Shown: in pieces, positions 12,150-29,842 of the stretch | How the letters are laid out: every line of letters starts with the position of its first letter | Position numbering within the stretch: the stretch's first letter is position 1 | From: Pseudooceanicola spongiae | GTDB taxonomy: Bacteria > Pseudomonadota > Alphaproteobacteria > Rhodobacterales > Rhodobacteraceae | Reading direction: 5' to 3' | Assembly (NCBI RefSeq): GCF_014899185.1 | Contig: NZ_CP045201.1 | Coordinates: 2,340,501 to 2,404,500, forward strand | Length of the DNA: 64,000 bases | Program-made: the position numbers and the translations under genes | Notes under the pieces: generated by a model | What the model was told of the DNA's origin: nothing | The model's input: the letters and a program-made list of their open reading frames with translations, nothing else | Database searches by the model: none

Positions 12150-12179
12150 CCGGCTGCAAGAGGTTACCTCCCCGACTGG

Positions 12180-12306: not shown

Positions 12307-12333
12307 CTGTTCAAAATATTAACGACTGTTCAT
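12307..12333. promoter_or_regulatory. Repeated CTGTTCA half-sites upstream of iclR
   Basis: CTGTTCAA (12307-12314) and CTGTTCAT (12326-12333) are direct repeats 19 bases apart, just upstream of the inferred start of the IclR gene. The same TGTTCA element occurs near 10990 (other strand) and at 47630 and 47642, so this may be an IclR autoregulatory site. Confidence 0.4.
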
Positions 12334-12360
12334 ATCTTGCCAGAAAGCGGAGCCGGTCCC

Positions 12361-13155
12361 ATCGAAGACGTTGCCGAACAAAAGACTGCCTACGACGTGC
12401 CGCCGGTGACACGGGCGTTCAACCTGCTGCGCTATATCGCGGCGGGCAATCGCTGTCGCAACATGTCGCGCGCGGCGGCGGATCTGAGCATCAATCGCAC
12501 CACGCTGATCCGTCTGCTGCACACGCTGCAACGCGAACAGATGATCGAGCTGGACCCCAAGGGCACCGGCTATTCGCTGTCCTACGGGGTGCTGGAGCTG
12601 GCCTCCAACCTGTTGTCGAGCCGCGATATTGTCCGGGTGTCGCGCCCGGTGCTGAGCCATCTTGCGGCCCAGACCGGGCTGTCGGCGCATCTGGGGGTGC
12701 TCTCGGGCACGGACGTGATCGTGCTGGTGCGCGAGACGCCGGATGTGCAGCTGGTCAGCAATATCCGCGAGGGCAGCCGCCTGCCCGCCCATGCCACGGT
12801 GATGGGGCGGATGATCCTGGCCAACATGCCGCGCGCCGAGGTCGAGGCGCTGCTGAAAGACTATAACTTCTCGGCCATTACCGAGAAAACAGCGACTACG
12901 ATGGAGAGCCTGGGGCGGCAGCTTGATGCGGATCTGGCCAGCGGTCTGGCGTGGTCTGTGGCGTTTTTCGAGCAGGGCATCGGGTCCTGCGCCGGGGTTG
13001 TGCGCGACCATGAGGGCACGCCGATTGCGGCGATCAGCGTCTCTGGCCAGCAGGCGGTGTTTGACGAGGACGCGCCGGAGCGTGGCTTGATCGCTGACGC
13101 GGTGCGCCTCGCGGCAGAGCGGCTGTCCTCGATCATGGGGCATATCGCGGTCTGA
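12361..13155 (+). CDS. IclR family transcriptional regulator, probable ATC start
   Basis: An IclR protein with an N-terminal winged HTH (PPVTRAFNLL to INRTTLIRLLHTLQRE) and a C-terminal effector-binding domain (LSAHLGVLSGTDVIVLVRET, SRLPAHATVMGRM). No ATG lies between the upstream gene and the HTH. Frame and alignment with the paralogue at 32929-33726, which begins 13 residues before VPPVTRA, point to the ATC at 12361, preceded by AGCGGAG (12346-12352) with 8 bases spacing. TTG at 12337 and GTG at 12301 are alternatives, but the latter lies inside the repeated TGTTCA region. It probably controls the adjacent monooxygenase and, through shared motifs, perhaps the Rieske operon. Family certain; start uncertain. 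Confidence 0.85.
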   Translation: MEDVAEQKTAYDVPPVTRAFNLLRYIAAGNRCRNMSRAAADLSINRTTLIRLLHTLQREQMIELDPKGTGYSLSYGVLELASNLLSSRDIVRVSRPVLSHLAAQTGLSAHLGVLSGTDVIVLVRETPDVQLVSNIREGSRLPAHATVMGRMILANMPRAEVEALLKDYNFSAITEKTATTMESLGRQLDADLASGLAWSVAFFEQGIGSCAGVVRDHEGTPIAAISVSGQQAVFDEDAPERGLIADAVRLAAERLSSIMGHIAV

Positions 13156-13935
13156 TCAGGCAGCGCCATCCCAGCCCAGCAGGGTCGAGATGCGCCGCGC
13201 CGTGGCGATCAGGTCGTCGCGCAGGGTGCCTGTGATCATCCTCTGAGTCTCGCTCGACTGTGGGGCGGTGACGTTGATAGCGGCGACGACGCGCCCTGTC
13301 ATGTCGCGCAGAGGGGCGGCAGCTGAGACGATACCGGCCTCGAAATCCCCTGTATGAACAACCGCTTGGGCATGGGAATCCTCAGCTGCCTGGCGCAGGA
13401 TACCGGGCAGCGACGGCCCTTTGCCACGGGTCCCGTCAGAGCGGAACAGGGCGACCAGCTCCTCCTCTGACAGATCTGCCAGCAGGACGCGGCCCATGGT
13501 GGTGGCGCGGGCGGGCAAGCGGCTGCCGACCTGCACGATCGAGGTGTCGCGCTGCGGCCCCGGCACCCGCAGGACATAGAGCACCGAGCTCCCCTCCAGC
13601 ACGCCCAGATGCGCCGACCAGCCGATGCGGTCGCGCATCCGCTCCAGCTCAGGCTGAGCGATTTCAACGACTTCGCGGGTGGCGACATAGCCATAGGTCA
13701 AGCGCAGCACACCGGGGCCGAGGGAATAGAGCTGGCTGCGCTGGTCATGCAGCAGGCAGCCCGCTTCGTTCAGCGTGTAGACGGTGCGGAAGGCGGCAGA
13801 GCGGGTGATGCCCAGAGCAGCAGCAATATCGCTGAGCGACAGGGCTGAGCGATCCGGCGTGAACAATTTCAGCACCCCGAGGCCGCGCATCAGCCCGGGC
13901 ACCAAATATCTGTCTTCGCTGCGATTTTCGACCAT
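13156..13935 (-). CDS. IclR family transcriptional regulator
   Basis: A 259-residue IclR regulator: winged HTH at about 12-75 (LSLSDIAAALGITRSAAFRT) and effector domain (IGWSAHLGVLEGSSVLYVLR, SRLPARATTMGRVLLADL). It is less similar to the other two IclR proteins of the window than those are to each other. It is convergent with the preceding iclR (stops nearly adjacent) and divergent from the bicupin gene at 14080, its most likely target; the palindrome ACATGCCATGT at 14003-14013 lies between them. Confidence 0.9.
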   Translation of the reverse strand: MVENRSEDRYLVPGLMRGLGVLKLFTPDRSALSLSDIAAALGITRSAAFRTVYTLNEAGCLLHDQRSQLYSLGPGVLRLTYGYVATREVVEIAQPELERMRDRIGWSAHLGVLEGSSVLYVLRVPGPQRDTSIVQVGSRLPARATTMGRVLLADLSEEELVALFRSDGTRGKGPSLPGILRQAAEDSHAQAVVHTGDFEAGIVSAAAPLRDMTGRVVAAINVTAPQSSETQRMITGTLRDDLIATARRISTLLGWDGAA

Positions 13936-14002
13936 TCTGCCCGTCTCCCGTCGTGCCGCGGCATAGGGATTCGGGACCGCAGCGTTTCACCAGTAAAACA
14001 CG

Positions 14003-14013
14003 ACATGCCATGT
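14003..14013. promoter_or_regulatory. Palindrome in the iclR-bicupin intergenic region
   Basis: ACATG-C-CATGT is a perfect 11-base dyad located 67 bases from each divergent start codon (13935 minus strand, 14080 plus strand). Position and symmetry suggest an IclR operator. No other copy was noticed. Confidence 0.4.
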
Positions 14014-14079
14014 AAAACGCAAGACGCGTAGTTTGGGATCAGAGCGAAAACAGACTGCAACATCGAAGAGGATGGCATC

Positions 14080-15027
14080 ATGACGGTTCAGGATACTGCA
14101 TTCAAAACCCTTAAGGACGCGTTGAAGGCCCATACGGGGCGCTTTGTCGACAAGACCTTCGACTGGCATGCCTTCCCCTCGAACGAAGGCTTTGACGATC
14201 TGTCGCGCGCGCAGATGCGCTATATCGGTGCCGGTGGCTCGCCCAAGGTCGGCGACACCAGCACGCTGAAACCGGATCATTTCACCGTCTCGCTGATCTA
14301 CAAGGAGCCGGGCAAATACGCCGCCTGCCACAGCCACGAGATCGAGGAGTCCTTCCTGATCATCGACGGCGCGCTGATCGTCGGCTGGGAAAAGGACGGC
14401 GAAGTCGTCGAGGTCAACCTTGGCCCGAAAGACATGATCCTGAACGCCCGCGAAATCGGCCACGGTTTCCGCGTTGACGGGGTTGAGCCGGTGATGATGT
14501 CGATCAGCGTCGATGTCGGCAAACCGCTGCCCCCGGTCTACCACTACCACCCCAAGGAACACGCGCCGGAGCTGGCGCGCGCCTTTGGGGCCGAGCCGGG
14601 CAAGACCTTGAAATTCGACGCAAATGGCGATCACCCGCTGCAAAAGCTGATGGGCAACTACGTCGTGCGCCACAGTGAGCTTGAGACCCGCTGGGACGAC
14701 GCTGGCTTTACCCGCAAGATCTATTGCGGCCCCGGTGGCGTCGAGACCGACACCTGCCGCAAGGAGATGCTGGGCATCCCCAGCCGCGTTGGCGTGAAGC
14801 CCTTCGTGCGCGACGTGGAAGACGCGTTCATGGTGCTGGAAGGGTCGCTGATTGTCGGCTGGGAAGAGGACGGCGAAACCGTCGAGACCGAGCTTGGGCC
14901 GCGCGATCTGGTCAAGACCCCCGCCGGGCGCAAGCACTGGTTCCGCAACAATGGCGCACAGGCTGCGACCGTCTGGTACCTGATCGGCTCGGCCGAGCCG
15001 GAACTGGTGAAGTTCGAAGCCGCATAA
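14080..15027 (+). CDS. Bicupin, possible aromatic-ring dioxygenase
   Basis: A 315-residue protein with two cupin domains. The N-terminal cupin (about 70-145) carries the metal-ligand pattern HSHEIEESF with a distal GHGF histidine; the C-terminal cupin (about 215-300) has DAFMVLEGSLIVGWEEDGE and RKHWF, and its first histidines are replaced, so it is probably structural. The parallel segments LIVGWEKDGEVVEVNLGPKD and LIVGWEEDGETVETELGPRD show internal duplication. Bicupins of this size include gentisate and salicylate ring-cleavage dioxygenases; the neighbouring NicC-like hydroxylase fits cleavage of a hydroxylated ring, but that is inference. A strong terminator follows. Confidence 0.75.
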   Translation: MTVQDTAFKTLKDALKAHTGRFVDKTFDWHAFPSNEGFDDLSRAQMRYIGAGGSPKVGDTSTLKPDHFTVSLIYKEPGKYAACHSHEIEESFLIIDGALIVGWEKDGEVVEVNLGPKDMILNAREIGHGFRVDGVEPVMMSISVDVGKPLPPVYHYHPKEHAPELARAFGAEPGKTLKFDANGDHPLQKLMGNYVVRHSELETRWDDAGFTRKIYCGPGGVETDTCRKEMLGIPSRVGVKPFVRDVEDAFMVLEGSLIVGWEEDGETVETELGPRDLVKTPAGRKHWFRNNGAQAATVWYLIGSAEPELVKFEAA

Positions 15028-15047
15028 GCAAACCCACTCACGGGCTG

Positions 15048-15080
15048 GGCCGCTCCTCGGGGATGGGGGGCGGCCTTTTT
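15048..15080 (+). terminator. Rho-independent terminator after the bicupin gene
   Basis: GGCCGC (15048-15053) pairs with GCGGCC (15070-15075), extendable inward by three more pairs including a G-T, followed by TTTTT (15076-15080). It lies 20 bases after the stop codon. Confidence 0.85.
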
Positions 15081-15165
15081 GCGTTCTGGGGAGGTGTCGG
15101 TGGGGTTTGCGGCGAAATGGGCCGCGACTCAGGGGTTAACTGAGGAAAACGGCGATTCCGCACGT

Positions 15166-15194
15166 CGGTATCCGGTCGGTATCAGAACGGTATC
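15166..15194. repeat. Three CGGTATC heptamers with an 11-bp period
   Basis: CGGTATC occurs at 15166-15172, 15177-15183 and 15188-15194, each start exactly 11 bases after the last. They lie between convergent genes (bicupin stop 15027, CHAP gene stop 15315), beyond the bicupin terminator. Two GGTTAAC copies flank them (15134-15140, 15225-15231). No gene was found in this 287-base stretch. Confidence 0.6.
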
Positions 15195-15314
15195 TGAACA
15201 GTGCGAAAATGCGGCTGGCGCATTGGTTAACGCGCCGTCCTGCACCCTGCAGAAAATGCCCTGATCGGGCGTGTTCTGGCGGAGCAGAGGCGCGCGGCCC
15301 CTGCCCTCAGCAGA

Positions 15315-15866
15315 TCACTTCTTGGCCGGGGCGGGCAGGATGAAGCCATGCGTCGGGTAGACGCTGCCGAACTGGTTGGGATTGCTTTCAAGGCGCACCT
15401 TGGTCCAGTCATTCTTTTCGGACACATCGATCACGTCCATGGCGACCGAAATCTCGTTGCGCTCCCAGTTGGCGTGGTCGATCAGGATCTCGCGGTTCGA
15501 CTTGATGCCGGAGACGACAGCGACATGGCCCAGCGGCATCGAACGGGTTGCCTGAAAGGCCATCACGGCGCCGACTTTCGGCTGTTGTGCCTGCACGAAC
15601 TTGTCGCGGGCCTGATCCCACCAGGTCTTGGCATCGCCGTAAAGCTCGATCCCGCTGACGTTGCGCGCAAAGGGCACACACCAGACGCGTCGGCCCGCGG
15701 CCTTGAGGCTCTGAACCTCGGCGAAGGCCATGGCCTCGCGGTCGGGGTCCAGACCAGACGACATGGTCTGGGAAGAGGGGGTTTGCGAACAGGCCGCAGC
15801 GGTCAGAAGGAGTGCGCAGAGTATTGGCAGCTTGAGCCAAGGCGCACGGGCGTATTTAACGCTCAT
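15315..15866 (-). CDS. CHAP domain lipoprotein, putative peptidoglycan amidase/endopeptidase
   Basis: A 183-residue protein with an N-terminal signal (ILCALLLTAAAC) ending in a plausible lipobox Cys26. The mature part is a CHAP (NlpC/P60-like) domain: catalytic Cys63 in WCVPFARNVSG, His114 in PLGHVAVV, and a polar third residue around His131-Asn133. CHAP enzymes cut peptidoglycan peptides or amide bonds; a lipoprotein form would act on the wall from the periplasm. It is a single gene with no functional link to its neighbours, probably housekeeping. Confidence 0.8.
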   Translation of the reverse strand: MSVKYARAPWLKLPILCALLLTAAACSQTPSSQTMSSGLDPDREAMAFAEVQSLKAAGRRVWCVPFARNVSGIELYGDAKTWWDQARDKFVQAQQPKVGAVMAFQATRSMPLGHVAVVSGIKSNREILIDHANWERNEISVAMDVIDVSEKNDWTKVRLESNPNQFGSVYPTHGFILPAPAKK

Positions 15867-16212
15867 TCGATCTCTCTAGGTCTAGGTATGCAAACAGGCC
15901 CCTGTCCCGAGCGGCCCTGCCAGACCATCGGAAATTTCATGGTAAATTCAAAGTGCGCAATTGGTGAACGGCGGGTTTTCGCCGCCCCTTTCTGCGCCAG
16001 CGCACAACGCCTACGCAGTTTCGTATAGGTTTACTGAGGAAAGCCTTATTTTATTGGCCAGCGGCCAGCCGCCGAGCGGCGGTTTCCGGGGCCTTCCGGC
16101 GCAATTTCTGGGGAGTTTTGGGCGGTTTCGCCTCATCACGTGGTTAATATCGCGCGTGATGAGGCGGATTCGTGGTGAACTTTTTCGTGCGTGGCGCGTT
16201 AGCTGAGGTTGA
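15867..16212. other. Intergenic region with a 12-bp perfect inverted repeat
   Basis: These 346 bases carry no convincing gene. The part near 15867-16060 should contain the CHAP gene promoter and is locally AT-richer. At 16129-16140 and 16155-16166 a perfect 12-base inverted repeat (CGCCTCATCACG and its complement) encloses a 14-base loop TGGTTAATATCGCG; no T-run follows. A smaller hairpin CCGCC-GAGC-GGCGG lies at 16069-16082. Confidence 0.5.
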
Positions 16213-17697
16213 TCACACCAGTTTGCGCCCGCCCGCGTCGAGGAACCATTCATCCGGGTAGGGATACCACCAGTCGTGGCGTTTGGGTGTGTGATCGAGG
16301 ATCACCATCTTCGAGCGGCGGAACGCATCCAACCCCTGACGCCCCAGTTCGCGGCCCATGCCGGAGGCTTTCCAGCCACCAAACGGCAGCGCGTCGTTGT
16401 CGATCATCGGGTTGTTGATCCAGACCATTCCAGCCTCAAGCCGTTCCGATGCCTCATGTGCTTCGGCGAGGTCGGTGGTGAAGATTGCAGCGCCAAGGCC
16501 GAAGGGACTGTCGTTGGCGGCGCTGATGGCGGCGTCGAAGTCGGGAACGCGGCAGATGGCGGCGACGGGGCCGAAGCATTCCTCGTGCAGGATATCCATT
16601 TGCGGGGTGCAGTCGGTGAGGATGGTGGGGGCATAGAACCAGCCCGGGCCGTAATCGCCGCGCGTGCCGCCGGTGATCAGGGTCGCACCCTTGGCCAGCG
16701 CATCGGCGACGAGGCGTTCGACCTTGGCGCGCGCGGGCTCACTGACAAGGGGGCCGATTTCGGATTTGGCGAGGCCGTTGCCGATGCGCAGGGCTTCGGT
16801 CTGGGATTTGAACTTGGCCACGAAGGCGTCGTGGATTTCGTCGACGACATAGAGGCGCTCGGTGGAGGTGCAGACCTGCCCGGTGAGGTGGAAGGCGCCG
16901 GTGACGGCCCCGGCGGCCGCGATCTCGACAGGGGCGGAGGCGGTGATGATCATCGGGTCGGAGCCGCCCGCCTCGATCACCGCCGGTTTCATCTGCGCGC
17001 CCGCGGCGGCGGCGACGGCGCGGCCTGCGGCGACGGAGCCGGTGAAGGCGACGGCGTGGGTCTGCGGGCTTTCGACCAGAGCCTTGCCGGTGGCGGCCCC
17101 GCCGGGCAGGCAGGCGACGAGGCCCTCGGGGAGGTCATCGAAGACGCGGCAGAAGTCGAGGGTCGAGAGGGTGGTGGCTTCGGCGGGTTTGATGATGCAG
17201 CCGTTGCCTGCGGCCAGCGACGCCGCGACCGTCCAGCACATCAGCAGGACCGGAAAGTTGAAGGGCATGATGTGGACCGACACGCCGAGCGGTTCGTAGC
17301 GGGCGTATTGCAGCGAGCCTGATTGCGTGGTCCCGGCGATCTTGCCCGCGTCGTCGCGCGCCATTTCGGCGTAGTAGCGGAAGACCGGCGCGACGTTGGC
17401 CAGCTCGCCTATCGCCTCGGGGTAGGGTTTGCCCATCTCGCGGCTCATCAGGATGGCGCAGTCGGTGAAATCACTGGACTCGATGCGGTTGGCGAGGCGG
17501 TGCAGGATCTGCGCGCGACTCTTGGCATCGACCTTTTTCCAGAGGGCCTGAGCGGCGTTGACGCGGGTGATCGTGTCGGTGAGTTCGGTTTCCGTCACCT
17601 CGACCCGGTGGCCGACGGTGTCGAGCGTGGCGGGGTCGATGACGGGGTGCTTTTGGCCTGCGGAGGGGCGCAGGCCGGGGGAGAGGTAATAGGTCAT
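16213..17697 (-). CDS. NAD(P)-dependent aldehyde dehydrogenase
   Basis: A 494-residue ALDH-superfamily enzyme oxidising an aldehyde to the acid. Catalytic Cys276 lies in TGQVCTSTERLYV, the general base Glu242 in IEAGGSDPMI (the usual ELGGK is altered to EAGGS), and the oxyanion Asn147 in MPFNFP. It ends the leftward potDBCA-GT-cupin-cupin operon, overlapping the second cupin by 4 bp. Context suggests an amino- or semialdehyde derived from the imported compound. The family is firm and the substrate unknown; the EAGGS change may mark a subfamily. Confidence 0.9.
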   Translation of the reverse strand: MTYYLSPGLRPSAGQKHPVIDPATLDTVGHRVEVTETELTDTITRVNAAQALWKKVDAKSRAQILHRLANRIESSDFTDCAILMSREMGKPYPEAIGELANVAPVFRYYAEMARDDAGKIAGTTQSGSLQYARYEPLGVSVHIMPFNFPVLLMCWTVAASLAAGNGCIIKPAEATTLSTLDFCRVFDDLPEGLVACLPGGAATGKALVESPQTHAVAFTGSVAAGRAVAAAAGAQMKPAVIEAGGSDPMIITASAPVEIAAAGAVTGAFHLTGQVCTSTERLYVVDEIHDAFVAKFKSQTEALRIGNGLAKSEIGPLVSEPARAKVERLVADALAKGATLITGGTRGDYGPGWFYAPTILTDCTPQMDILHEECFGPVAAICRVPDFDAAISAANDSPFGLGAAIFTTDLAEAHEASERLEAGMVWINNPMIDNDALPFGGWKASGMGRELGRQGLDAFRRSKMVILDHTPKRHDWWYPYPDEWFLDAGGRKLV

Positions 17698-18038
17698 CGG
17701 ATCATGTAGACCTTCTTGATCGTCTCATGCACGGTGCAGGTGCCGCGCCAGTCCTGCGGGAAGAAGGCGGCGGTGTCGGGCGTGATCTCGATCACCTCGC
17801 CGTCCTCGTGGACGTAGGTCGCGCGGCCTTGCAGGAAGTGGCAGAATTCGTCCTTCGTCACGTGGCAGGCCCATTTGCCGGGGGTGCAGATCCAGAGGCC
17901 GCATTCGTTTTCGCCATTGGGGCCCTTGTGGAGAAGCTTGCCGGAGGTGTGGCTTTCGCCCTCCAGCATGGTCGGGATGATGCCCCAGTCGACAGTGTCG
18001 GTGATGGCGAGGGGGGAGGTCATGACGGGGGTTTTCAT
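17694..18038 (-). CDS. Small cupin protein (DUF861/cupin_3 type)
   Basis: A 114-residue single cupin domain. I start it at the ATG at 18038, 5 bases after the upstream cupin; a longer reading back to 18101 would overlap that gene without adding a domain. Features include ECGLWICTPGKWACHV, DEFCHFLQGRATYVHEDGE and the terminal VHETIKKVYMIR. This resembles ureidoglycine-hydrolase-like cupin_3 proteins. It overlaps the aldehyde dehydrogenase by 4 bp and is clearly paralogous to the next cupin. Function unknown; metal binding or hydrolysis of a small metabolite is possible. Confidence 0.75.
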   Translation of the reverse strand: MKTPVMTSPLAITDTVDWGIIPTMLEGESHTSGKLLHKGPNGENECGLWICTPGKWACHVTKDEFCHFLQGRATYVHEDGEVIEITPDTAAFFPQDWRGTCTVHETIKKVYMIR

Positions 18039-18043
18039 ATGTG

Positions 18044-18400
18044 TCAGCTCAGCATGTAAATGTTGCGGATGGTCTGGTGGATGGTGGCTTCGCCGCTCCA
18101 CCCCGCGGGGAAGAGGACGCAGGTGCCGGGGGTGACCTCGGTCACCTCGCCGTCGTCGCGGGTGTAGGTGGCGCGGCCGGCGACGAAATGGCAGAATTCG
18201 TCGCGAGGGATCGACAGACGCCAGCGGCCCGGGGTGCAGACCCAGATGCCGGTTTCGGGGCTGTTGTCCGGGCCCTTGAACAGCAGGCGGCCGGTGTTGT
18301 GGGACTGGCCGTCGATCATGCCGGGCTGGTCGCCCCAGTCGACGAGGTCGTCGTAGGTGCTGGCGGCGTGGATATGCGGGGCGGTGGAGTTCAGCGTCAT
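18044..18400 (-). CDS. Small cupin protein, paralogue of its neighbour (DUF861/cupin_3 type)
   Basis: A 118-residue cupin. The ATG at 18400 overlaps the glycosyltransferase stop by 4 bp, fixing the start. Motifs run parallel to the adjacent cupin: GIWVCTPGRWRLSIPRDEFC against GLWICTPGKWACHVTKDEFC, and IHQTIRNIYML against VHETIKKVYMI. The pair therefore arose by tandem duplication and may form a heterodimer or act on successive intermediates. No function can be assigned from sequence alone. Confidence 0.75.
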   Translation of the reverse strand: MTLNSTAPHIHAASTYDDLVDWGDQPGMIDGQSHNTGRLLFKGPDNSPETGIWVCTPGRWRLSIPRDEFCHFVAGRATYTRDDGEVTEVTPGTCVLFPAGWSGEATIHQTIRNIYMLS

Positions 18401-19674
18401 TCGGTCAGGCCTACGAGGATCTTGGCGGCCTTTTCCTGACCGTTCTGGCTTTGCATATGGGCGGAGGTGGTGGCGAGTTTCGCCGCCATGTCCGCATCGG
18501 TCAGGCAGGCTTCGATCTTGGCGATAAGCTCCTCGTCGGTCCACTCGTAGCGGTCCGAGCGGAAGCCGTGGCCGGTTTCCTGCACGCGCATGGCGTTGTC
18601 GTGGCCATCCCAGACATAGGACATGATGATCGCCGGTTTGCCGAAGTAGAGGCATTCGGTGAAGGAGTTGTTGCCGCCGTGGTGGATGACCGCGTCGACC
18701 TGCGGAATGACGGAAGGTTGCGGGTACCAGCTGTCGATGAGGACGTTGTCGGGCAGGTCGGCGTACTGGTCCTTGTAGTCGCCGACGTTGACCAGCGCAC
18801 GGTAGCGGGTGGTGCCGATCAGGGTGATCAGGCGCTTCAGAAGGTCCGTGTCCCCTGCCCCGAGGCTGCCGAAAGAGATGTAGAGCAGCGGGCCGTCGGT
18901 GTTGGCCTTGAAGGTCGGCACCTCGTAGGGCGCATCCTGACGCACGCAGCCCTCAAGGTACTGGAATTGCGCGGGGTTCAGCGGCTCGGGGCGGTGGTAT
19001 TTCACCTGCTCGGGGTAGAGCAGGAGGTTCATGAAGGGGCTGGGTTCGAAGAACTGGCCGAGGGGGTATGGGTCTTCGCCGGTGGTCTTCAGGAATTCGT
19101 TGTAGTCGTCGTGGATCGGCTTGATGACTTCGTGGAACTTGGCGCGGAAGGCGGCGTGGCCTGCGGTATCGGTTTCGCTCATGCCCGAGAGGTGCGGCGG
19201 GATCGCGTCATCCTCGATCTCGTTCTCCGAACAGGAGATGATGCGCACCCATGGCTTGCCGTATTGCTTGATGGCGGGGAAGAGGATCACGTTGTCGACG
19301 GAAATCACGTCGGGCTTGATCGCGGCCAGCACCGACGGCAGGTCCTTTTCGGCCCATTTGGCGGAGTCCACGATCGCCTCCCAGCATTCCTTGACGTAGT
19401 TATCCAGCTGGTCGATGGGGGCTTTGCGGAAGTTCGGGATGTGGCCGTTGATGAAATCCTCCCAGAACTTCGCCATCTGTTCGGGCGGCATGGGGGCGGA
19501 GAGGTTCACGGCGTGGGCCTCGAACCCGTAGCCCTTGTAGACATCGACGAAGCCGGGGTCCGAGAGGAACACGGCCTTGTGGCCCATGCGTTCGACCGCC
19601 TGCGCGATGCCGACGGAATTGAGGGCGGGGCCAAAGGCGGCTTCGGGGAAGAAGGCGAAGGTTTTCGGGGTCAT
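18397..19674 (-). CDS. UGT-type (GT family 1, GT-B) glycosyltransferase
   Basis: A 425-residue GT-B glycosyltransferase with no signal peptide, so cytosolic. The N-terminal acceptor domain begins FAFFPEAAFGPALNSVGIAQ; the C-terminal nucleotide-sugar domain has LLYISFGSLG and the HHGGNNSFTE motif (331-340), followed by WDGHDNAMR, as in UDP-glycosyltransferases. I chose the ATG at 19674, preceded by AGGAGA; a more upstream start has no such signal. It follows potA by 52 bases and overlaps the first cupin by 4 bp. A paralogue sits at 24644-25912 on the divergent arm. Its presence in an uptake/oxidation operon is unusual. Confidence 0.88.
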   Translation of the reverse strand: MTPKTFAFFPEAAFGPALNSVGIAQAVERMGHKAVFLSDPGFVDVYKGYGFEAHAVNLSAPMPPEQMAKFWEDFINGHIPNFRKAPIDQLDNYVKECWEAIVDSAKWAEKDLPSVLAAIKPDVISVDNVILFPAIKQYGKPWVRIISCSENEIEDDAIPPHLSGMSETDTAGHAAFRAKFHEVIKPIHDDYNEFLKTTGEDPYPLGQFFEPSPFMNLLLYPEQVKYHRPEPLNPAQFQYLEGCVRQDAPYEVPTFKANTDGPLLYISFGSLGAGDTDLLKRLITLIGTTRYRALVNVGDYKDQYADLPDNVLIDSWYPQPSVIPQVDAVIHHGGNNSFTECLYFGKPAIIMSYVWDGHDNAMRVQETGHGFRSDRYEWTDEELIAKIEACLTDADMAAKLATTSAHMQSQNGQEKAAKILVGLTE

Positions 19675-19726
19675 GGGGTGGCTCTCCTGTTGTCGTGGGG
19701 CCCTCTGGCGGGGCATTGGGTCGGGG

Positions 19727-20779
19727 TCAGGCGGCAAAGACGCGGGTGTCGCGGGCGCTCCAGCCGAGGGTGACGGGATCGCCGGGGCTCAGCGCATGGG
19801 CTTCGGCCTGATCGGCGGTCAGGCGGATCGTGACGGGCTGGGGGGCCAACGGCGTTTCGACATGCAGCAGCAGATCGAGGCCGTGATAGGCCAGCGCCAT
19901 GACGCGCCCGGTCAGGATATTGTCGCAGCCAGTCACCTCAAGGCGCAGGCGTTCGGGGCGCACGGCGGCGACGGCGGCGCCGGTCAGCCCGTCGGGGATC
20001 GTGGCGCGGATCAGGGTGCCTTTGCCGGTGCGCAGGGCACCGCCGTCGCAGTGCACCGGAAAGAAGTTCATCACACCGATGAAGTCGGCGGCAAAGCGGC
20101 TGGTGGGGTGTTCGTAGATGTCGTGCGGGGTGCCGACCTGCAGCAGCGCGCCGTCCTTCAGGATCGCGATGCGGTCGGCCATGACCAGCGCTTCCTCCTG
20201 ATCATGGGTGACGACGATGAAGGTGATGCCGAAGTCGGCCTGAATGCGCTTGAGTTCGAGCTGCATTTCGCCGCGCAGCTTCTTGTCGAGCGCCCCGAGG
20301 GGTTCGTCGAGCAGCAAGAGGCGGGGGCGTTTGACCAAAGCGCGGGCGAGCGCGACGCGCTGACGCTGGCCACCGGAGAGCTGGTCAGGCTTGCGGTTGG
20401 CGAGGGCGGAAAGCTGGATGGTTTCCAGGATCTCGCCGACGCGGGATGTGATCTCAGACTTCGGGAGCTTCTCCATCTCCAGCCCGTAGGCGATGTTTTT
20501 GGCGACGCTCATATGCGGGAACAGAGCGTAGCTTTGGAACATCAGGTTGACGGGGCGCTTGTTGGGCGGGGTCTGGGCGATGTCGCGGCCATCCAGCAGG
20601 ATCTGGCCGGCGCTGGGCAGCTCAAACCCCGCGAGCATCCGCAGCAGGGTGGTCTTGCCGCTGCCGGAGGCGCCGAGCAGGGCGAAGAATTCATTCTCGG
20701 CAATATCAAGCGAGACGCCGTTGACGGCGCGCATCTTGCCGAAGTCTTTTTGCAGGGAAAGCAGGGAAAGCAGGGTCAT
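19727..20779 (-). CDS. ABC transporter ATP-binding protein, PotA-like
   Basis: A 350-residue importer ATPase of the spermidine/putrescine (PotA) family: Walker A GASGSGKTT, signature LSGGQRQRVALARAL, Walker B LLLLDEPLGALD, H-loop VTHDQEEAL, and a C-terminal TOBE domain (about 270-345). It energises the two permeases encoded upstream and overlaps the PotC-like gene by 4 bp. PotA-type systems import polyamines, but related ones carry other amines or sugars. Confidence 0.92.
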   Translation of the reverse strand: MTLLSLLSLQKDFGKMRAVNGVSLDIAENEFFALLGASGSGKTTLLRMLAGFELPSAGQILLDGRDIAQTPPNKRPVNLMFQSYALFPHMSVAKNIAYGLEMEKLPKSEITSRVGEILETIQLSALANRKPDQLSGGQRQRVALARALVKRPRLLLLDEPLGALDKKLRGEMQLELKRIQADFGITFIVVTHDQEEALVMADRIAILKDGALLQVGTPHDIYEHPTSRFAADFIGVMNFFPVHCDGGALRTGKGTLIRATIPDGLTGAAVAAVRPERLRLEVTGCDNILTGRVMALAYHGLDLLLHVETPLAPQPVTIRLTADQAEAHALSPGDPVTLGWSARDTRVFAA

Positions 20780-21564
20780 TGGCCGGGAAGTCCGCCGCGA
20801 TTGAGGCGTTGCGACAGGGTGAGGGCGAGGACCGAGATCCCCATCACGATGGTCGCAAGCGCGTTGATTTCCGGGGTCACGCCAAAGCGGATCATGGCGT
20901 AGATCTGCATCGGCAGCGTGGTCGAGGCGCGCCCTGCCCCGGCGGTGAAGAAGGCGATGACGAATTCATCAACCGACAGGGTGAAGGCCAGCAGCGCCCC
21001 GGCGATGATCGCGGGGCTGAGGACGGGGATGATGACGCGGCGCAGGGTGGTGAAGGTCGGCGCGCCGAGGTCGGTGGACGCCTCGACAATCGACCAGTCG
21101 AAGGTTTTCAGGCGGGCCCGCACGACCGAGCAGACGAAGGCGAGGTTGAAGACGACATGGGCCAGAATGATCGTGTGCAGGCCCATCGTCACGCCGAGCA
21201 GCGAGAAGAACGACAGCAGGGCGATGGCCAGCACGATGTCGGGGATGATCATCGGGGCGAAGATGAGGGTTTCGAGGAACCGCCCCTTGCGGCGGCGGAT
21301 CTCGACCCCGACGGCCAGCAAGGTGCCGAAGAGGGTGGCGAGGATCGTCGAGATGACGGCGACGATCAGGGTGTTCAGCGCCGCGCCCATGATGTCGGCA
21401 TTGGCGAACAATGCGCCGTACCATTTGGTGGAAAAGCCGGTCCAGGCGGTGGGCAGGCCACCGTCGTTGAACGACAGCGCGACCAGCACCGAAATCGGCA
21501 GGTAGAGGAAGGCGAAGACGCCCGCGAGGATGGCCAGCATCAGCGGGAGGGGTGCGTTACGCAT
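20776..21564 (-). CDS. ABC transporter permease, PotC-like
   Basis: A 262-residue inner-membrane permease with about six TM helices. The first is LMLAILAGVFAFLYLPISVL, and the cytoplasmic coupling (EAA) loop reads EASTDLGAPTFTTLRRVIIP. Its start overlaps the end of the PotB-like gene by 8 bp. It forms the channel with the preceding permease. Confidence 0.92.
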   Translation of the reverse strand: MRNAPLPLMLAILAGVFAFLYLPISVLVALSFNDGGLPTAWTGFSTKWYGALFANADIMGAALNTLIVAVISTILATLFGTLLAVGVEIRRRKGRFLETLIFAPMIIPDIVLAIALLSFFSLLGVTMGLHTIILAHVVFNLAFVCSVVRARLKTFDWSIVEASTDLGAPTFTTLRRVIIPVLSPAIIAGALLAFTLSVDEFVIAFFTAGAGRASTTLPMQIYAMIRFGVTPEINALATIVMGISVLALTLSQRLNRGGLPGQ

Positions 21565-22405
21565 TGCGGCCTCCGGATGCTTTTTCCGACGCGAAGGTCT
21601 GCAGCGTCAGCAGGCCCATCATGATGGCGATCAGAAAGATCGACAGCGCCGCGCCGAAGGGCCAGTCATTCGCGGTCAGGAACTGCGCATAGACGAGGTT
21701 GCCGATCATCTGGAATTGCCCGCCGCCCAGCAGCGCCGGGGTGACGAAATTGCCGATCGAGAGGACAAAGACGAAGGTGAAGCCGGTGGCGATGCCGGGC
21801 ACGGTCATCGGCAGCACGACACGGCGGAAGGTGGTCCAGGGGCTGGCGCCGAGGTCGCGGGACGCCTCCGTCACCTCGGGGTTGAGGCGCGACAGGGGCG
21901 CGTAGCAGGCGAGGATGACGAAGGGCAGGTAGTTGTAGACCAGCCCGATGACGACAGCGGTTTCGGTATAGAGCATGCGGGGCAGCTCTCCCTCAAACCC
22001 CAGCAGCCGGGCGAGGTGAACGATCAGACCTTCGCGGTTCAGCAGCACGATCCAGGCGTAGGTGCGCACCAGGTAGTTCGACCAGAACGGCAGCACGGCG
22101 AAGAACAGCAGCAGCGGCTGGTGGCGCCGCGGCATGGCGGCGATGGCATAGGCGGCGGCGTAGCCGAGGATCACCGCGATCAGCGCCGACAGCCCGGCGA
22201 TCCAGGCGGATTTCAGGAAGATCCCGGCATAGAGCGGGTCGAACACCAGCGCGATATTCTCCCACGTCAGGGTATAGTCGATGCCGCCGTAAAGGCCCCG
22301 CCGGAAGAAGGCGAGCGCGAGGATCAGCAGGCAGGGCACCACCATGAAGGCGGTCAGCCAGGCCAGCGCCGGGGTCATCAGGAAAAGCGGTCTGCGGTCA
22401 CGCAT
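21557..22405 (-). CDS. ABC transporter permease, PotB-like
   Basis: A permease of about 282 residues with six predicted TM helices (first LMTPALAWLTAFMVVPCLLI) and the coupling loop EASRDLGASPWTTFRRVVLP. Two adjacent ATGs (22408 and 22405) are possible; AAAGG upstream is better spaced for 22405. It lies 60 bases downstream of the solute-binding protein gene. Confidence 0.9.
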   Translation of the reverse strand: MRDRRPLFLMTPALAWLTAFMVVPCLLILALAFFRRGLYGGIDYTLTWENIALVFDPLYAGIFLKSAWIAGLSALIAVILGYAAAYAIAAMPRRHQPLLLFFAVLPFWSNYLVRTYAWIVLLNREGLIVHLARLLGFEGELPRMLYTETAVVIGLVYNYLPFVILACYAPLSRLNPEVTEASRDLGASPWTTFRRVVLPMTVPGIATGFTFVFVLSIGNFVTPALLGGGQFQMIGNLVYAQFLTANDWPFGAALSIFLIAIMMGLLTLQTFASEKASGGRNA

Positions 22406-22465
22406 CATTGCACCTTTGCGCCGCCCCACTGGGGTGCAGGGCGGCAAAGAGCCTCAGGGACGGGG

Positions 22466-23503
22466 TCAGTCGGCCGCCTTGATCTCGGAGACGATGCGGG
22501 AATAAGCTCGCTGCGCCTCGCCGACGTCGAGCAGTTGCTCGTAACCCAGCAGTTCCTCGGGAGAGATGGCCATGTTGGGGTATTGCGCCAGCAGGGCGGG
22601 GTCGAGGCCGTCCATCGCTGCCTTGTTCGGCACCTTGTAGAGGATGTTTTCCGCCGCCCAGCGGTGATGTTCGGCGTCCAGCATCCAGTTGACGAAGGCA
22701 TAGGCCGCGTCTTTATGCGCGGAGTTTTTCAGGATCACCATGGTGTCGACCCAAAGGTCAGAGCCTTCCTCGGGGATGACGTACTGGATGTCGGCATTTT
22801 CGGCGATGCCGTAGTTGCACCAGCCATCCCAAGCCTGCACAAGGTCCGCCTCGCCCGAGACGAGCTTGGCGTAGAAGGTGGTGTCGTCATAGGCCAGCAG
22901 GGTGCGCTTGGCCGAGATCAGGTCGTTCTTGACCTTGTCGAGCTCAATCGGGTCGGTGGTGTTGACGGAATAGCCGTTCGCCAGCTGCGCCGCGGCCAGC
23001 AGCCAGCGGTCGGTCGCCAGCATGGTGATCTTGTCCTTCAGCTCGTCCGAGGGGGTCAGCAGATCCCACCAGCTGTCGGGCGTTTCGTCAATCAGATCAG
23101 AGCGATAGCAAAGCCCCGTGGTGCCCCAGGCATAGGGCACGGAAAAGGCGTTGCCGGGATCATGCTTCAGCTGCGTCGCGGCGTCGTAGAGATTGGCGAG
23201 GTTGGGCAGCTTGGCGTGATCCAGCGTTTCCGCGATGCCGAGCTTGTTGAGCACCTCAGCAAAGGGCGAGGAGACGAAGACCACGTCATAGCCCGCGCCC
23301 TTGGAGGCGATCAGCTTGCCCATGATCTCCTCATTCGTGCCGTGCAACACAAGTTCGGCGCTGTTGGAGGTATCGGTGTTGAAGGCGTCGATCGCGTCGG
23401 GGGCCATGTAGCCATCCCAGTTCGAGATGACGAGATCTTCGGCACTGGCGGCGCTGGTCAGCGCGGCGATCAGGGCGAGACCGGTGAGCGGGGTGCGGAA
23501 CAT
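22466..23503 (-). CDS. Extracellular solute-binding protein, PotD-like
   Basis: A 345-residue periplasmic binding protein with a Sec signal peptide (TGLALIAALTSAASA, cleavage before EDLVIS). The mature start LVISNWDGYMAPDAIDAF and the segments YAWGTTGLCYRSD and LAYDDTTFYAKL fit the PotD/PotF polyamine-binding family. First gene of the leftward operon, divergent from the GntR regulator. Ligand preference cannot be read from the sequence; polyamine or a related amine is the default. Confidence 0.9.
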   Translation of the reverse strand: MFRTPLTGLALIAALTSAASAEDLVISNWDGYMAPDAIDAFNTDTSNSAELVLHGTNEEIMGKLIASKGAGYDVVFVSSPFAEVLNKLGIAETLDHAKLPNLANLYDAATQLKHDPGNAFSVPYAWGTTGLCYRSDLIDETPDSWWDLLTPSDELKDKITMLATDRWLLAAAQLANGYSVNTTDPIELDKVKNDLISAKRTLLAYDDTTFYAKLVSGEADLVQAWDGWCNYGIAENADIQYVIPEEGSDLWVDTMVILKNSAHKDAAYAFVNWMLDAEHHRWAAENILYKVPNKAAMDGLDPALLAQYPNMAISPEELLGYEQLLDVGEAQRAYSRIVSEIKAAD

Positions 23504-23660
23504 GGGATGTCCTCCTGTTGGCTCTGTTGGGGTGCGCCCGGGATCGGGGGCGCTTATTTTTGGGCTTTGCAGCTGCGGTTCTTGATGACCGTCGTGATTT
23601 CAGTATTGTTGAGGTGAAAAATACGTCAACTTGTATTCGCTGTCCTTTGGGTTTTCAGGC

Positions 23661-23690
23661 CCTGAGCGGGCGGCAGTACCGCCCCTCAGG
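23661..23690. promoter_or_regulatory. Near-perfect inverted repeat overlapping the gntR ribosome-binding site
   Basis: CCTGAG (23661-23666) and GGGCGG (23668-23673) pair with CCGCCC (23679-23684) and CTCAGG (23685-23690) around CAGTA, a 12-bp stem with one bulged C. The right arm contains the AGGA-type ribosome-binding sequence of the ATG at 23700. It could be a protein operator (autoregulation) or an RNA hairpin hiding the translation start. A weaker dyad, GTTGA (23608-23612) with TCAAC (23626-23630), lies upstream in the same divergent region. Confidence 0.55.
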
Positions 23691-23699
23691 ATCGTTTCC

Positions 23700-24647
23700 A
23701 TGGCAGAGCTTCGCAGAAACGCGCGCCAGAACCATCTGACCCTGGCCAAGCAGGTGATCAGCATCGCGCTGGAACGCGGGCTGCAACCGGGCGAGCATCT
23801 GCCAGAGCAGGCCTTTTCCGAGGCCTGCGGCGTGTCGCGCACCCCGATGCGGGCGGCCTTCAAGATACTGGAAGAGAACGAAATTCTAAGCTGGCGTGAG
23901 GAAGAGGGCTACTTCCTTGAGACCGGCCCGCAGGATGGTCTGACCGAGGCCGCTCAGCTGTTGGAGGAGATGGAGGATTCGCTGGCCACCCGCATCCTGT
24001 CCGACAGGGCGGCCCGGCGCATCAGTGATGTGCAATCCGTCAGCGCCCTTGTGCGAAGATATGGCAGGTCGCGCAGTACAGTCCTAAATGCGCTAAAAAT
24101 ACTGGCGCGCGACGGGATCGTGACGCAATTGCCCGGACGCTCCTGGGCGTTTCAGCCGATTCTGGACACGCCCCGCAGTATCGAGGAGAGCCTGCAGTTC
24201 CGTCTGATCCTGGAACCGCAGGCGATCACCGCCCCGGGGTTTCAGCTGGATGCGCAAAAGGCGGGCCTGTTGCGTGCGCAGATGCAGGCGCATCTGCAGA
24301 CCCGTCAGGGGCGCATCGGCTCGGCCAGTTTCATGCGGATCGACACGGAGTTCCATGGGTTTATCGCCGAATGCTCCGGCAACCGGTTCGCGCGCGGCGC
24401 GCTGCTGGCACATCACCGGCTGCGGCGGGCGACGCAAAAGGATCTCTCGATCCCCGATTTTCGCCTGCGTCAGTCGCTGGAGGAGCATCTGGATATCCTC
24501 GACAGCCTTGAACAGTTGCAGTTCGATGTCGCCGCCGACCTGATGACGCTGCATCTGCGCCGCTCACGCATCCGCCGCCCCGAAGCGGCGAACCGGGGTA
24601 TCGTGCCCCTGACACGGGGACCTCTGACACGGGGGCCCAGCGCATGA
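23700..24647 (+). CDS. GntR-type regulator with two winged-helix domains and an FCD-like domain
   Basis: A protein of about 315 residues. I use the ATG at 23700 (AGGA spaced 7-8 bases) because the sequence before it adds no domain. The first GntR HTH (about 10-75) has LPEQAFSEACGVSRTPMRAA; a second winged-helix segment (about 92-150) has VSALVRRYGRSRSTVLNALK; an FCD-like all-helical domain follows with FMRIDTEFHGFIAECSGN. The tail contains a small LTRGP duplication. It is divergent from potD and overlaps the second glycosyltransferase by 4 bp, so it probably controls both arms. Two DNA-binding domains in one chain is unusual for this family. Confidence 0.82.
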   Translation: MAELRRNARQNHLTLAKQVISIALERGLQPGEHLPEQAFSEACGVSRTPMRAAFKILEENEILSWREEEGYFLETGPQDGLTEAAQLLEEMEDSLATRILSDRAARRISDVQSVSALVRRYGRSRSTVLNALKILARDGIVTQLPGRSWAFQPILDTPRSIEESLQFRLILEPQAITAPGFQLDAQKAGLLRAQMQAHLQTRQGRIGSASFMRIDTEFHGFIAECSGNRFARGALLAHHRLRRATQKDLSIPDFRLRQSLEEHLDILDSLEQLQFDVAADLMTLHLRRSRIRRPEAANRGIVPLTRGPLTRGPSA

Positions 24648-25912
24648 AACGCCGCAACGCGGCGCCGGTCATCGCCTTCTTCCCCGAGGCGAGCTTTGGC
24701 GCCGCGCTGAACTGCATCGGTATCGCGCAGGAGCTGACCCGCATGGGGGCGGTGCCGGTGTTCATCTGCCATCCGGGCTTTACCGGCGTCTTCGCCGACT
24801 ATGGCTTCAAGGAATACCACCTGCCGGGGGGCGGCGCGCAGGCCAGCGCCGAGGATTGGCAGGGCTTCATCAACACCCATATGCCGCATTTCAACCTCGA
24901 CGCCGCGGCGCAGCTGGAGCCCTATGTCGCCCCGACCTGGGAGGCGATCGTCGACACCGCCATCCATGCCGAAGCCGGGCTGAGCGCGCTGCTGGAACAG
25001 ATCCGCCCCGACGGCATCGTGCTGGACAACGTGATCATGTTCCCCGCCATCGCGCGCGCCGGGTGCGCTTGGGTGCGCATCGTCTCCTGTGCGGAAACCG
25101 AATTGCCGGACGCCCATGTGCCACCCTATCTGTCGGGCCTTGCCGCCGATGATCCTGCGCGTGCGGGGTTCGAGAAGGCCTATCTGCGCGCCACGCGCAG
25201 TGCTCACCGGCGCTATAACGAGTTCCGCCGTCTGCATGGCATGGCCCCCCTGCCCGCTGGCGTGTTTCTGGAACCCGGCGATCTGACGCTGCTGCTGTCG
25301 CCCGAGGCGGTGCGCTATGACCGCGCCACGCCCTTGCCCGAGGATCGCTTTGGCTATCTGAATGGATGCGTGCGCAGTGAGAGCCGCTTTGATTTGCCGC
25401 GCCTGCCGGTCGAGGACGGGCCGCTGGTCTATCTGGGCTTCGGCAGTCTGGGGGCCATCGACACCGACCTGATCACCCGGATGATCGATGTGTTCGCCAC
25501 CCTGCCCGCACGCTTTGTGGTCAATGTGGGCGGCTACCTCGACGCTTATACCCATGTGCCGGACAATGTGTATCTGGGGGACTGGTTCCCCCAGCCCTCG
25601 GTCGTGGAGCAGAGCGCGCTGTTCATCCACCACGGCGGCAACAATTCTTTCTGCGAGGCGCTGTATCATGGGGTGCCGTCGCTGGTGATGCCCTATTGCT
25701 GGGACGGCCACGACAATGCTCAGCGCGCCGAGGCGACCGGCACCGGGGTGCGTATCGGGCGCCGGGACTGGACCCCCGACAGCCTGCGCCGTGCCATTTT
25801 GCAGCTGCTGGGGGATGCGCCGATGCGGGCGCGTCTGGCCGCGATCTCGGAAAAGATGCAGGCCAGCCCCGGCACCCGCCGCGCCGCCGAGGCGATCCTG
25901 CGCCTGCTCTAG
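24644..25912 (+). CDS. UGT-type glycosyltransferase, paralogue of the 18397-19674 enzyme
   Basis: A 422-residue GT-B enzyme. N-terminus IAFFPEASFGAALNCIGIAQ, sugar-nucleotide domain LVYLGFGSLGAIDTDL, HHGGNNSFCEAL (329-340) and WDGHDNAQR. It aligns along its full length with the glycosyltransferase of the opposite arm; both keep the HHGGNNS and WDGHDNA segments, so both are probably active. It overlaps the regulator gene by 4 bp (ATGA). One enzyme in each arm of a divergent regulon suggests different acceptors or a mixed dimer; no acceptor can be deduced. Confidence 0.87.
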   Translation: MKRRNAAPVIAFFPEASFGAALNCIGIAQELTRMGAVPVFICHPGFTGVFADYGFKEYHLPGGGAQASAEDWQGFINTHMPHFNLDAAAQLEPYVAPTWEAIVDTAIHAEAGLSALLEQIRPDGIVLDNVIMFPAIARAGCAWVRIVSCAETELPDAHVPPYLSGLAADDPARAGFEKAYLRATRSAHRRYNEFRRLHGMAPLPAGVFLEPGDLTLLLSPEAVRYDRATPLPEDRFGYLNGCVRSESRFDLPRLPVEDGPLVYLGFGSLGAIDTDLITRMIDVFATLPARFVVNVGGYLDAYTHVPDNVYLGDWFPQPSVVEQSALFIHHGGNNSFCEALYHGVPSLVMPYCWDGHDNAQRAEATGTGVRIGRRDWTPDSLRRAILQLLGDAPMRARLAAISEKMQASPGTRRAAEAILRLL

Positions 25913-28778: not shown

Positions 28779-29831
28779 TCAGACGGCGCGGCCGAGCATG
28801 CCGAACAGATCGCGCGGATCATCGGGATCGGCCAGCAGGTCCAGCGGCTGGCTGAAGCCTGTGCCCGCCACCCGGTCCGCAACAAACCGCAGCGCCGAGA
28901 AATCCTCGATCGCGAAGCCGACGCTGTCGAACAGGGTGATTTGCGACGGCGTGCTGCGCCCCGCGACCTCGCCGCGCATCACCTGCCACAGCTCGGTGAC
29001 GGCGTGATCGGGGTCGAGCTGCTGGATCTCGCCCTCAACCCGCGTCTGGGGCGGGTATTCGACGAAGATCTCGGCGCGCGTCAGGATATCGCGGTGCAGC
29101 TCGGTCTTGCCGGGGCAGTCGCCGCCGATGGCATTGATATGCACGCCCGCGCCGACCATGTTGTCGGTCAGAACCGTGGCGTACTGCTTGTCGGCGGTGC
29201 AGGTGGTGATGATCTGCGCGCCCTCGACCGCCTGCATGCCGCTGTCACAGGCGACCACCTCGAACCCCTGCGCGGTCAGGTTGCGCATGGCCTTTTCCGT
29301 CGCCGCTGGGTCGATATCATAGAGCCGCAGGCGGTTGATGCCGCAGAGCGCACGAAACGCCATCGCCTGAAATTCGCACTGCGCGCCGTTGCCGATCATC
29401 GCCATGACCTGCGCGTCCTTGGGGGCGAGGTATTTCGCCACCAGCGCCGAGGTCGCCGCCGTGCGCAGCGCCGTCAGCACCGTCATCTCGCTCAGCAAGA
29501 TCGGATAGCCATTGGCGACCGAGGAGAGCACGCCGAAGGCCGTCACCGTCTGATAGCCTTGGCGCATGTTCGCGGGGTGGCCGTTGACGTATTTGAAACC
29601 GTAATTCTCGGCATCGGCGGTCGGCATCAGCTCGATCACGCCGTCCTTGCTGTGGCTGGCGACGCGGGGGGTCTTGTCGAACTCGGGCCAGCGCAGAAAG
29701 TCGGCCTCGATATAGCCGGCGAGGCCGCGCAGGAAATCCTCGACGCCCGTCGCATTGACGAGGCGCATCATGTTGTCGACGCTGACAAAGGGCACATAGG
29801 CCAAGGCAGAGGGTTCAGGACGGTCGGTCAT
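28779..29831 (-). CDS. Ornithine cyclodeaminase family protein
   Basis: A 350-residue NAD-dependent enzyme of the ornithine cyclodeaminase/mu-crystallin family, expected to convert L-ornithine to L-proline and ammonia. Visible are the substrate-site segment YGFKYVNGHPANMRQG, the TALRTAATSAL motif, the Rossmann segment MAMIGNGAQCEFQ and INAIGGDCPGKTEL. The ATG at 29831 follows GAGG; a TTG at 29846 overlapping the arginase stop is an alternative start. Directly downstream of arginase, it completes the arginine-ornithine-proline route. Confidence 0.92.
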   Translation of the reverse strand: MTDRPEPSALAYVPFVSVDNMMRLVNATGVEDFLRGLAGYIEADFLRWPEFDKTPRVASHSKDGVIELMPTADAENYGFKYVNGHPANMRQGYQTVTAFGVLSSVANGYPILLSEMTVLTALRTAATSALVAKYLAPKDAQVMAMIGNGAQCEFQAMAFRALCGINRLRLYDIDPAATEKAMRNLTAQGFEVVACDSGMQAVEGAQIITTCTADKQYATVLTDNMVGAGVHINAIGGDCPGKTELHRDILTRAEIFVEYPPQTRVEGEIQQLDPDHAVTELWQVMRGEVAGRSTPSQITLFDSVGFAIEDFSALRFVADRVAGTGFSQPLDLLADPDDPRDLFGMLGRAV

Positions 29832-29842
29832 GGCGTTGATCC

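Follow-up and report, generated by a model that had tools for sequence, protein, structure and literature searches.

What are two UGT-type glycosyltransferases (GTs) doing among the genes of a transporter, two cupins and an aldehyde dehydrogenase (ALDH)? The question is raised by a locus at positions 16213-25912 of a 64,000-nucleotide stretch of Pseudooceanicola spongiae DNA (the window; contig NZ_CP045201.1, positions 2,340,501 to 2,404,500), where potD, potB, potC, potA, the first GT (GT1), cupB, cupA and ALDH form one arm of a divergent unit and a GntR regulator and the second GT (GT2) form the other. An earlier note on this DNA had proposed that glycosylation may protect or tag an imported amine, or its aldehyde, ahead of oxidation, in the manner of gamma-glutamylation in the Puu pathway. 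We find that the unit is real and conserved, and its gene content, its linkage, the exchange of its modules and the conservation of key residues can all be observed directly. Our preferred reading, which we regard as evenly poised, is that it would be a regulated, horizontally spread system for amine catabolism through a sugar conjugate with recycling of the sugar donor.

All ten genes lie in the divergent order that the earlier note had described (Table 1), with four-base overlaps at potC/potA, GT1/cupB, cupA/ALDH and GntR/GT2, and because the same gene order recurs in relatives it is not a matter of chance. The regulator, claimed to be a double-winged-helix protein, indeed has two GntR-type stretches together with an FCD domain by Pfam; its start is more likely at 23700 than at the possible TTG at 23631. 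For GT1 and cupB the longest frames, from 19737 and 18655 respectively, probably begin too early.

Whether the GTs are conserved with the transporter bears directly on the earlier proposal, and among near relatives they are. The linkage figures refer to such relatives, being drawn from 80 named loci (L070-L149) that are the best 80 of at least 555 confirmed GT1 relatives; flank length varies between loci, and the counts reflect loci with relatedness uncorrected. Considering the 61 of these with at least 6.7 kb before and at least 4.2 kb after GT1, and applying set identity thresholds, potD, potB, potC, potA, cupA, ALDH, GntR and GT2 are all present beside GT1 in 58, the exceptions being L088, L090 and L130. 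A count of 59 of 61 for the pot genes, made without thresholds, was dropped because it included the 22-47% identical pot set of L130; the thresholded count is 58. In 74 of 76 named loci the start of a cupin gene lies no more than 700 bases beyond GT1. The exception L088, from a Halieaceae metagenome-assembled genome (MAG), reads over 10001-18614 as GT1, the DAO-type flavoprotein gene DAO2, a GPH symporter, a BetI-like regulator, cupB, cupA, an AmgK-like gene and an ALDH (38% identical), with no pot hit. A further named locus, L139, lies on a contig of a MAG named Syntrophomonadaceae and has a GT1 78% identical to that of the window; this contig is perhaps mis-binned.

Further afield the distribution becomes patchy. 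In a sample of the order, 60 of 390 genomes match the GT1 query at E<=0.001, and just 15, the window's own counted, hold a GT1 at 75% identity or more, 13 of which also show the second match, of GT2 type; the sample includes two more genomes of the window's genus, and these have none. Matches at E<=1e-20 occur in 13 of 385 genomes of the class sample and 8 of 398 of the phylum sample (the own genome in each), and 15 of 72,556 plasmid records match GT1, these being from rhizobia, Ruegeria and two haloarchaea at 57-77% and from four others lower. The nearest named relative among the matches listed, from which very near records may be left out, is Pseudooceanicola sediminis (GT1 96%). Of the 14 order-level loci besides the window, 12 carry potDBCA, GT1, cupins, ALDH, GntR and GT2; L043 is without GntR-GT2, and L045 shows GT1 and cupA only. 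Six more loci, from the phylum sample, also carry the set (L046-L051, of which L046 ends at a contig edge after GT1). It is seen in roseobacters, in rhizobia and, within the phylum sample, in three genomes of another class. This patchy presence, on plasmids and across domains, suggests that the unit has spread horizontally. One plasmid of Pseudomonas frederiksbergensis holds a broken GT2-like gene (L066:10001-10998) as three matched pieces amid type VI secretion genes.

GT1 and cupin form the core of the module, which pot usually joins, because the pair persists where pot does not lie alongside. In the class-level loci outside the order a cupin adjoins GT1 in 12 of 12, with pot beside GT1 in only four, all of one genus; some of the others are on short contigs, and two of those without full pot have a PotA-like ATPase directly before GT1. 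GT1-cupin-ALDH stands on two haloarchaeal plasmids (Natrialba magadii and Natronorubrum aibiense), and Halomonas sp. ML-15 (L090, 21 kb) has GT2-GntR divergent from GT1-cupB-cupA-AmgK-ALDH-ALDH2-GlmU domain-DAO2 with no pot hit; therefore the enzymatic part can stand without an adjoining transporter. The co-conservation of GTs and transporter thus holds for near relatives but loosens with distance. One might suppose that the unit serves ordinary polyamine uptake and oxidation with the GTs as passengers, since a Pot-type transporter and an ALDH are common polyamine genes, but it is GT1 and cupin that persist where pot is not adjacent, the reverse of what passengers would do, and we consider this very improbable indeed.

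The cupins themselves are paralogues (53% identical over 100 columns) with the Pfam domain PF05899 (Cupin_3). In cupA Glu65 is invariant and His60 and His105 are kept in most rows; its predicted model (mean predicted local distance difference test score, pLDDT, 95.3) is nearest to DUF861 structures, a match that assigns no function because the cupins listed act on different substrates.

The GTs were claimed to be paralogous, and they are: GT1 and GT2 are 47% identical over 420 columns and share the motifs HHGGNNS and WDGHDNA, with no third such GT in the window's genome (one contig, 4.37 Mb) at E<=0.001 with the GT1 query. Both have a C-terminal nucleotide-sugar domain (Pfam UDPGT and EryCIII-like_C, above cut-offs), and GT2 forms one clade in a tree of 38 rows (support 100/100). 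Residues were counted over distinct sequences, since the loci L032-L045 share genomes with L070-L149 (L032 and L075, for example). At the site of the histidine after strand 1, which we take to be the catalytic base of the UGT superfamily with an aspartate as its partner, GT1 has proline in 109 of 109 sequences (Pro16 in the window) and GT2 alanine or serine in 80 of 80 (Ala20 in the window), whilst the aspartate at the dyad position (GT1 Asp127) is kept in all of them. The GT1 set includes distant rows, and one of the 109 has glutamine at the Gly357 site. Pro16 aligns with the histidine of FGH in the spider-mite enzyme UGT203A2 and of YGH in Bacillus YjiC. The solved structures closest to both GTs are UGT203A2, with FGH and DQ in place of the FGP and DG of GT1, and UGT202A2, whose GPGH makes a shifted histidine possible there. 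The macrolide-type family TIGR01426 belongs to the same superfamily by sequence and shares the C-terminal nucleotide-sugar motif, but our GTs score only 92.2 and 116.2 bits against its cut-off of 260, are without the base histidine and stand in another gene context. Mite UGTs were transferred from bacteria, and a GT on a plasmid of Streptomyces coeruleorubidus (L068:8947-10221; about 36% identical to GT1, with YGP and DQ) matches the two spider-mite structures at E 8.9e-67 and 6.6e-60, the next best match being at 1.7e-21; this GT may be near the bacterial source of the mite enzymes.

Such enzymes need not stand on a main metabolic route. UGT-type GTs are typically conjugating enzymes, the nearest solved relatives here are those of spider mites, and GT1-cupin pairs also occur without pot or an oxidase, all of which would fit a detoxification sink, with the GTs attaching sugar to a side product that is toxic or in surplus (an alcohol, acid or aldehyde hydrate) and the sugar lying off the main route. 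We think this unlikely, given that the motifs are invariant over the 109 GT1 and 80 GT2 distinct sequences, that two GTs are dedicated to the unit and that genes for remaking the donor share the operon in some relatives, all of which point to an obligate step.

An AmgK-like gene sits between cupA and ALDH (341-356 aa in seven loci) in 24 of the 58 loci whose flanks are long; in two loci it matches NF045698 at E 4.2e-72 and 3.9e-61 (243.4 and 207.3 bits against an equivalog cut-off of 500). A stand-alone GlmU uridylyltransferase domain is found in 10 of the 58, all ten also with the AmgK-like gene (hypergeometric P = 3.8e-5, relatedness ignored). This protein, which precedes DAO2 in some loci, matches the uridylyltransferase half of GlmU only: in L073 (Phaeobacter sp. 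HF9A) it has 250 aa and matches PRK14353 at E 4.4e-87 (below the cut-off), the match to GlmU structures is at E 2.7e-50, and in genome G195 the cluster copy is a 259-aa frame compared with 462-499 aa for copies elsewhere (four genomes searched). The genomes with a cluster AmgK hold one further AmgK copy elsewhere in 7 of 7 searched. AmgK-MurU is an anomeric sugar recycling route, and here too an AmgK-like kinase and a nucleotidyltransferase could make a UDP-sugar from free sugar; the difference is that a second AmgK copy stands in an amine-type operon, beside GTs, with a GlmU domain instead of MurU. The two haloarchaea, Natrialba magadii and Natronorubrum aibiense, carry a ROK-family gene and one for a sugar-phosphate mutase after GT1-cupin-ALDH; the N. 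magadii genes resemble, both below cut-offs, a glucokinase model (E 1.7e-46) and one of archaeal phosphoglucosamine mutase (E 1.6e-85). That sugar-1-phosphate could be made from free sugar by two unrelated routes, both encoded beside the same GT, is the strongest indication that the sugar may be reused. The glycosyl tag suggested by the earlier note gains from these sugar-1-phosphate and UDP-sugar genes in relatives, but none is linked in the window.

The genes for C-N oxidation are the exchangeable part. One of three types may lie near GT1, namely DAO2, DAO3 or a saccharopine-dehydrogenase-like (Sacdh) gene, and at 45% identity or more the 80 named loci divide into 24 with DAO2, 17 with DAO3, 13 with Sacdh and 26 with none, so that 41 of the 80 have DAO2 or DAO3. 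With no identity threshold, 53 have one such gene, 26 none and one has two, this sole locus (L089) pairing DAO2 with a DAO3-type gene at 33% identity; at 45% or more there are zero loci with two. Where flanks are long on both sides an oxidising gene is present in 38 of 55. The DAO proteins score below the cut-offs of the models they resemble, those of aminophosphonate oxidoreductase and pipecolate oxidase, and all 17 DAO3 loci also carry a glutamine-synthetase-like (GS-like) gene. A separate arrangement occurs at L061:3438-11242, where two facing GT1-type genes accompany a cupin, an ALDH, an old-yellow-enzyme-type oxidoreductase and a GcvT-like protein, a set with a possible link to N-demethylation.

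In the scheme that we infer, from each reaction, the sugar and its acceptor to the direction of flux, PotABCD would import an amine-type compound, and GT1, with GT2, would move a sugar from a UDP-sugar (perhaps UDP-N-acetylhexosamine or UDP-hexose) onto it or an early product. In many relatives the linked DAO-type flavoprotein or Sacdh-like enzyme and the ALDH would then oxidise the conjugate or a released aldehyde, with the cupins acting beside the GT step, perhaps by hydrolysing the conjugate. The freed sugar would pass through sugar-1-phosphate, made by the AmgK-like kinase, to UDP-sugar, made by the GlmU-type domain, with the ROK kinase and GlmM-like mutase serving sugar recycling in haloarchaea. 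A more specific version, to which we give a rather low probability, is that the GTs, without the base histidine, would N-glycosylate the amine, that DAO2, DAO3 or the Sacdh-like enzyme would cut the C-N bond to give an aldehyde and a glycosylamine, and that the cupin would hydrolyse the latter for recycling via AmgK and the GlmU domain. If this were true, the sugar would be a catalytic carrier, reused repeatedly, in bacteria and archaea alike.

Several observations weigh against a sugar conjugate with a recycled donor. Eight of the 12 class-level GT1-cupin loci are without the pot set, and the neighbours examined there show no common theme. The window has no linked AmgK or GlmU domain, genome-wide searches placing the homologues outside it (the single AmgK copy lies between TsaE-like and MurU-like frames, the flanks being judged by inspection), and the AmgK and GlmU assignments in relatives fall under the NCBIfam equivalog cut-offs. 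None of the three oxidase types is present in 26 of the 80 loci, or in 17 of the 55 with long flanks; the window has no DAO2-type gene, the hits in its genome lying only outside the window and being 27-32% identical at best, and a search made without a positive control gave no Sacdh match in that genome. There is no glycosidase among the identified neighbours, for which no systematic search was made. GS-family genes adjoin GT2 in Mesorhizobium loci and sit near GT1 in N. magadii, and outside the window, at 1.83 Mb in its genome (G000:C1:1831844-1836591), a DAO-family gene is grouped with two of the GS family, possibly as a gamma-glutamylation operon.

These GS-family genes also define how far the parallel with Puu can be taken. 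Puu is the gamma-glutamyl-putrescine pathway of E. coli, in which conjugation by a ligase is followed by an oxidase, an ALDH and removal of the handle. Our unit shares with it an importer, a conjugating enzyme, an ALDH, a dedicated regulator and the logic of a removable handle, and in some relatives a DAO-type flavin oxidase. It differs in that the conjugating enzyme is a UDP-sugar GT rather than a glutamine-synthetase-like ligase, that cupins stand at the hydrolase's place, that sugar-recycling genes occur in relatives and that some loci have both GT and GS-family genes. The window unit has an ALDH but neither a PuuA-like synthetase nor a PuuB-like flavin amine oxidase, and Pfam and NCBIfam find no GS-family protein among its ten genes. 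The ALDH matches 43 NCBIfam models, none of the 25 shown reaching its cut-off, and scores 250.6 bits on the PuuC equivalog model (cut-off 850). As far as the genes tell, the unit resembles a conjugate-and-oxidise amine route and is not the Puu pathway. Since the window is without linked kinase, GlmU domain and oxidase, and in some relatives the GTs have genes resembling gamma-glutamyl ligases as neighbours, the sugar does not simply replace glutamate, leaving the earlier proposal partly borne out. A haloarchaeal GS paralogue is reported as a glutamate-putrescine ligase (PMC8394153), and N. magadii may on this account run both kinds of conjugation.

The nature of the imported compound is a further consideration. 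PotA, B, C and D homologues lie in a single operon (Pfam, NCBIfam), and the earlier note had reasoned that PotABCD-type systems import amines. We mapped the PotD pocket by hand from a pairwise alignment with E. coli PotD, in which we take E36, D168, E171 and D257 to be the acidic residues that bind polyamine. Glycine, threonine and tryptophan replace the first three in 87 of 87 distinct rows, whilst the aromatic box and D257 are kept and an invariant aspartate adjoins the D168 site; the 87 are those retained of 101 rows at 50% identity or more, 14 having been dropped as probably from second pot sets. With most of the acidic contacts missing, a polyamine is doubtful as the substrate. The loss of these contacts would also fit import of a compound already bearing sugar (a glycosylated amine, an opine-like compound or an amino-sugar), with AmgK and GlmU recovering the sugar that the GTs trim or transfer, as would the GPH-family (glycoside-type) symporter of L088, which has no pot hit, and the Sacdh-like gene of 13 loci. 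We judge this decidedly unlikely, as the identified neighbours include no glycosidase (no systematic search for one was made) and a UDP-sugar-making GlmU domain suggests that the donor is consumed, not merely salvaged.

Direction of flux could in principle also be reversed, the unit building a glycosylated amine solute, as osmolyte or exported metabolite, instead of degrading an amine. Several carriers are halophile or marine by name (Aidingimonas, Halomonas, Natrialba, roseobacters), and ALDH2 scores best against a betaine-aldehyde dehydrogenase model, below its cut-off; yet the unit is also present in rhizobia and Mesorhizobium, and both its regulators (GntR or IclR) and the C-N oxidising genes linked to it look like those of a catabolic system, so we give little credence to synthesis.

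As to regulation, we infer from the sequence that GntR controls both arms from one divergent site. The candidate is the block between the arms. Allowing up to 3 mismatches, we find no second copy of it in the window, and allowing up to 2 we find its 21-base core just once in the genome. The element stands at the same place in relatives, the exact core being found in 12 of 172 loci compared, including the window's own (L002) and two from one genome (L034 and L077), and in L090, which has no pot, the core lies between GntR and GT1. Promoter function may account for some of this conservation, since the block overlaps a -35-like hexamer of the minus arm, TTGACG.

Table 1. Features of the divergent unit, by position in the window.
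Feature	Position	Strand	Description
ALDH	16213..17697	-	Last minus-arm gene; Pfam Aldedh E 4.8e-142
cupA	17694..18038	-	Cupin_3 (DUF861/EutQ-like) protein
cupB	18044..18400	-	Cupin_3 paralogue of cupA; Pfam Cupin_3 E 4.1e-16 (match given from 18403)
GT1	18397..19674	-	UGT-type (GT-B family) glycosyltransferase; Pfam EryCIII-like_C and UDPGT
PotA-like ABC ATPase	19727..20779	-	TIGR01187 potA, 371.7 bits, above cut-off 355.6
PotC-like permease	20776..21564	-	Top NCBIfam match PotC, 246.5 bits, below equivalog cut-off 326
PotB-like permease	21557..22408	-	Top NCBIfam match PotB, 227.4 bits, below equivalog cut-off 348 (given from 22414)
PotD-like solute-binding protein, altered ligand pocket	22466..23503	-	PotD model, 139.1 bits against cut-off 582
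Conserved divergent promoter/operator-like element AAAATACGTCAACTTGTATTCGCTGT	23618..23643	no strand	Between both arms
GntR/FCD regulator, two winged-helix stretches	23700..24647	+	Pfam GntR and FCD (match given from 23631)
GT2, second UGT-type glycosyltransferase	24644..25912	+	Own clade

Around the unit, an ornithine-cyclodeaminase-family gene and an arginase-like frame (by inspection) lie beside it at 28779-30769; within the available flanks of L070-L149 such genes have no match near GT1. Pseudooceanicola sediminis (L070) shares the sensor-kinase and regulator genes and the IclR and cupin genes upstream, and its flank stops short of the 28779-30769 genes. The window also holds an AcrB-type efflux pump gene (7748-10882) and a FAD-binding monooxygenase-like gene (11022-12149).

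We found no paper describing this unit in the literature searched, and the words 'glycosyl' and 'cupin' are absent from the main text of two polyamine papers (PMC8437039, PMC9397018). Even if the tag model fails, the unit is a widespread uptake-and-oxidation system not found described in that literature. Cells that carry it may break down an amine while it bears a reusable sugar handle. If this is true, bacteria and haloarchaea would share a second strategy for processing amines that bear a removable handle, the widespread pairs of Cupin_3 and GT genes would acquire a role open to testing, and UGTs lacking the usual histidine would become candidates for the glycosylation of amines or acids.

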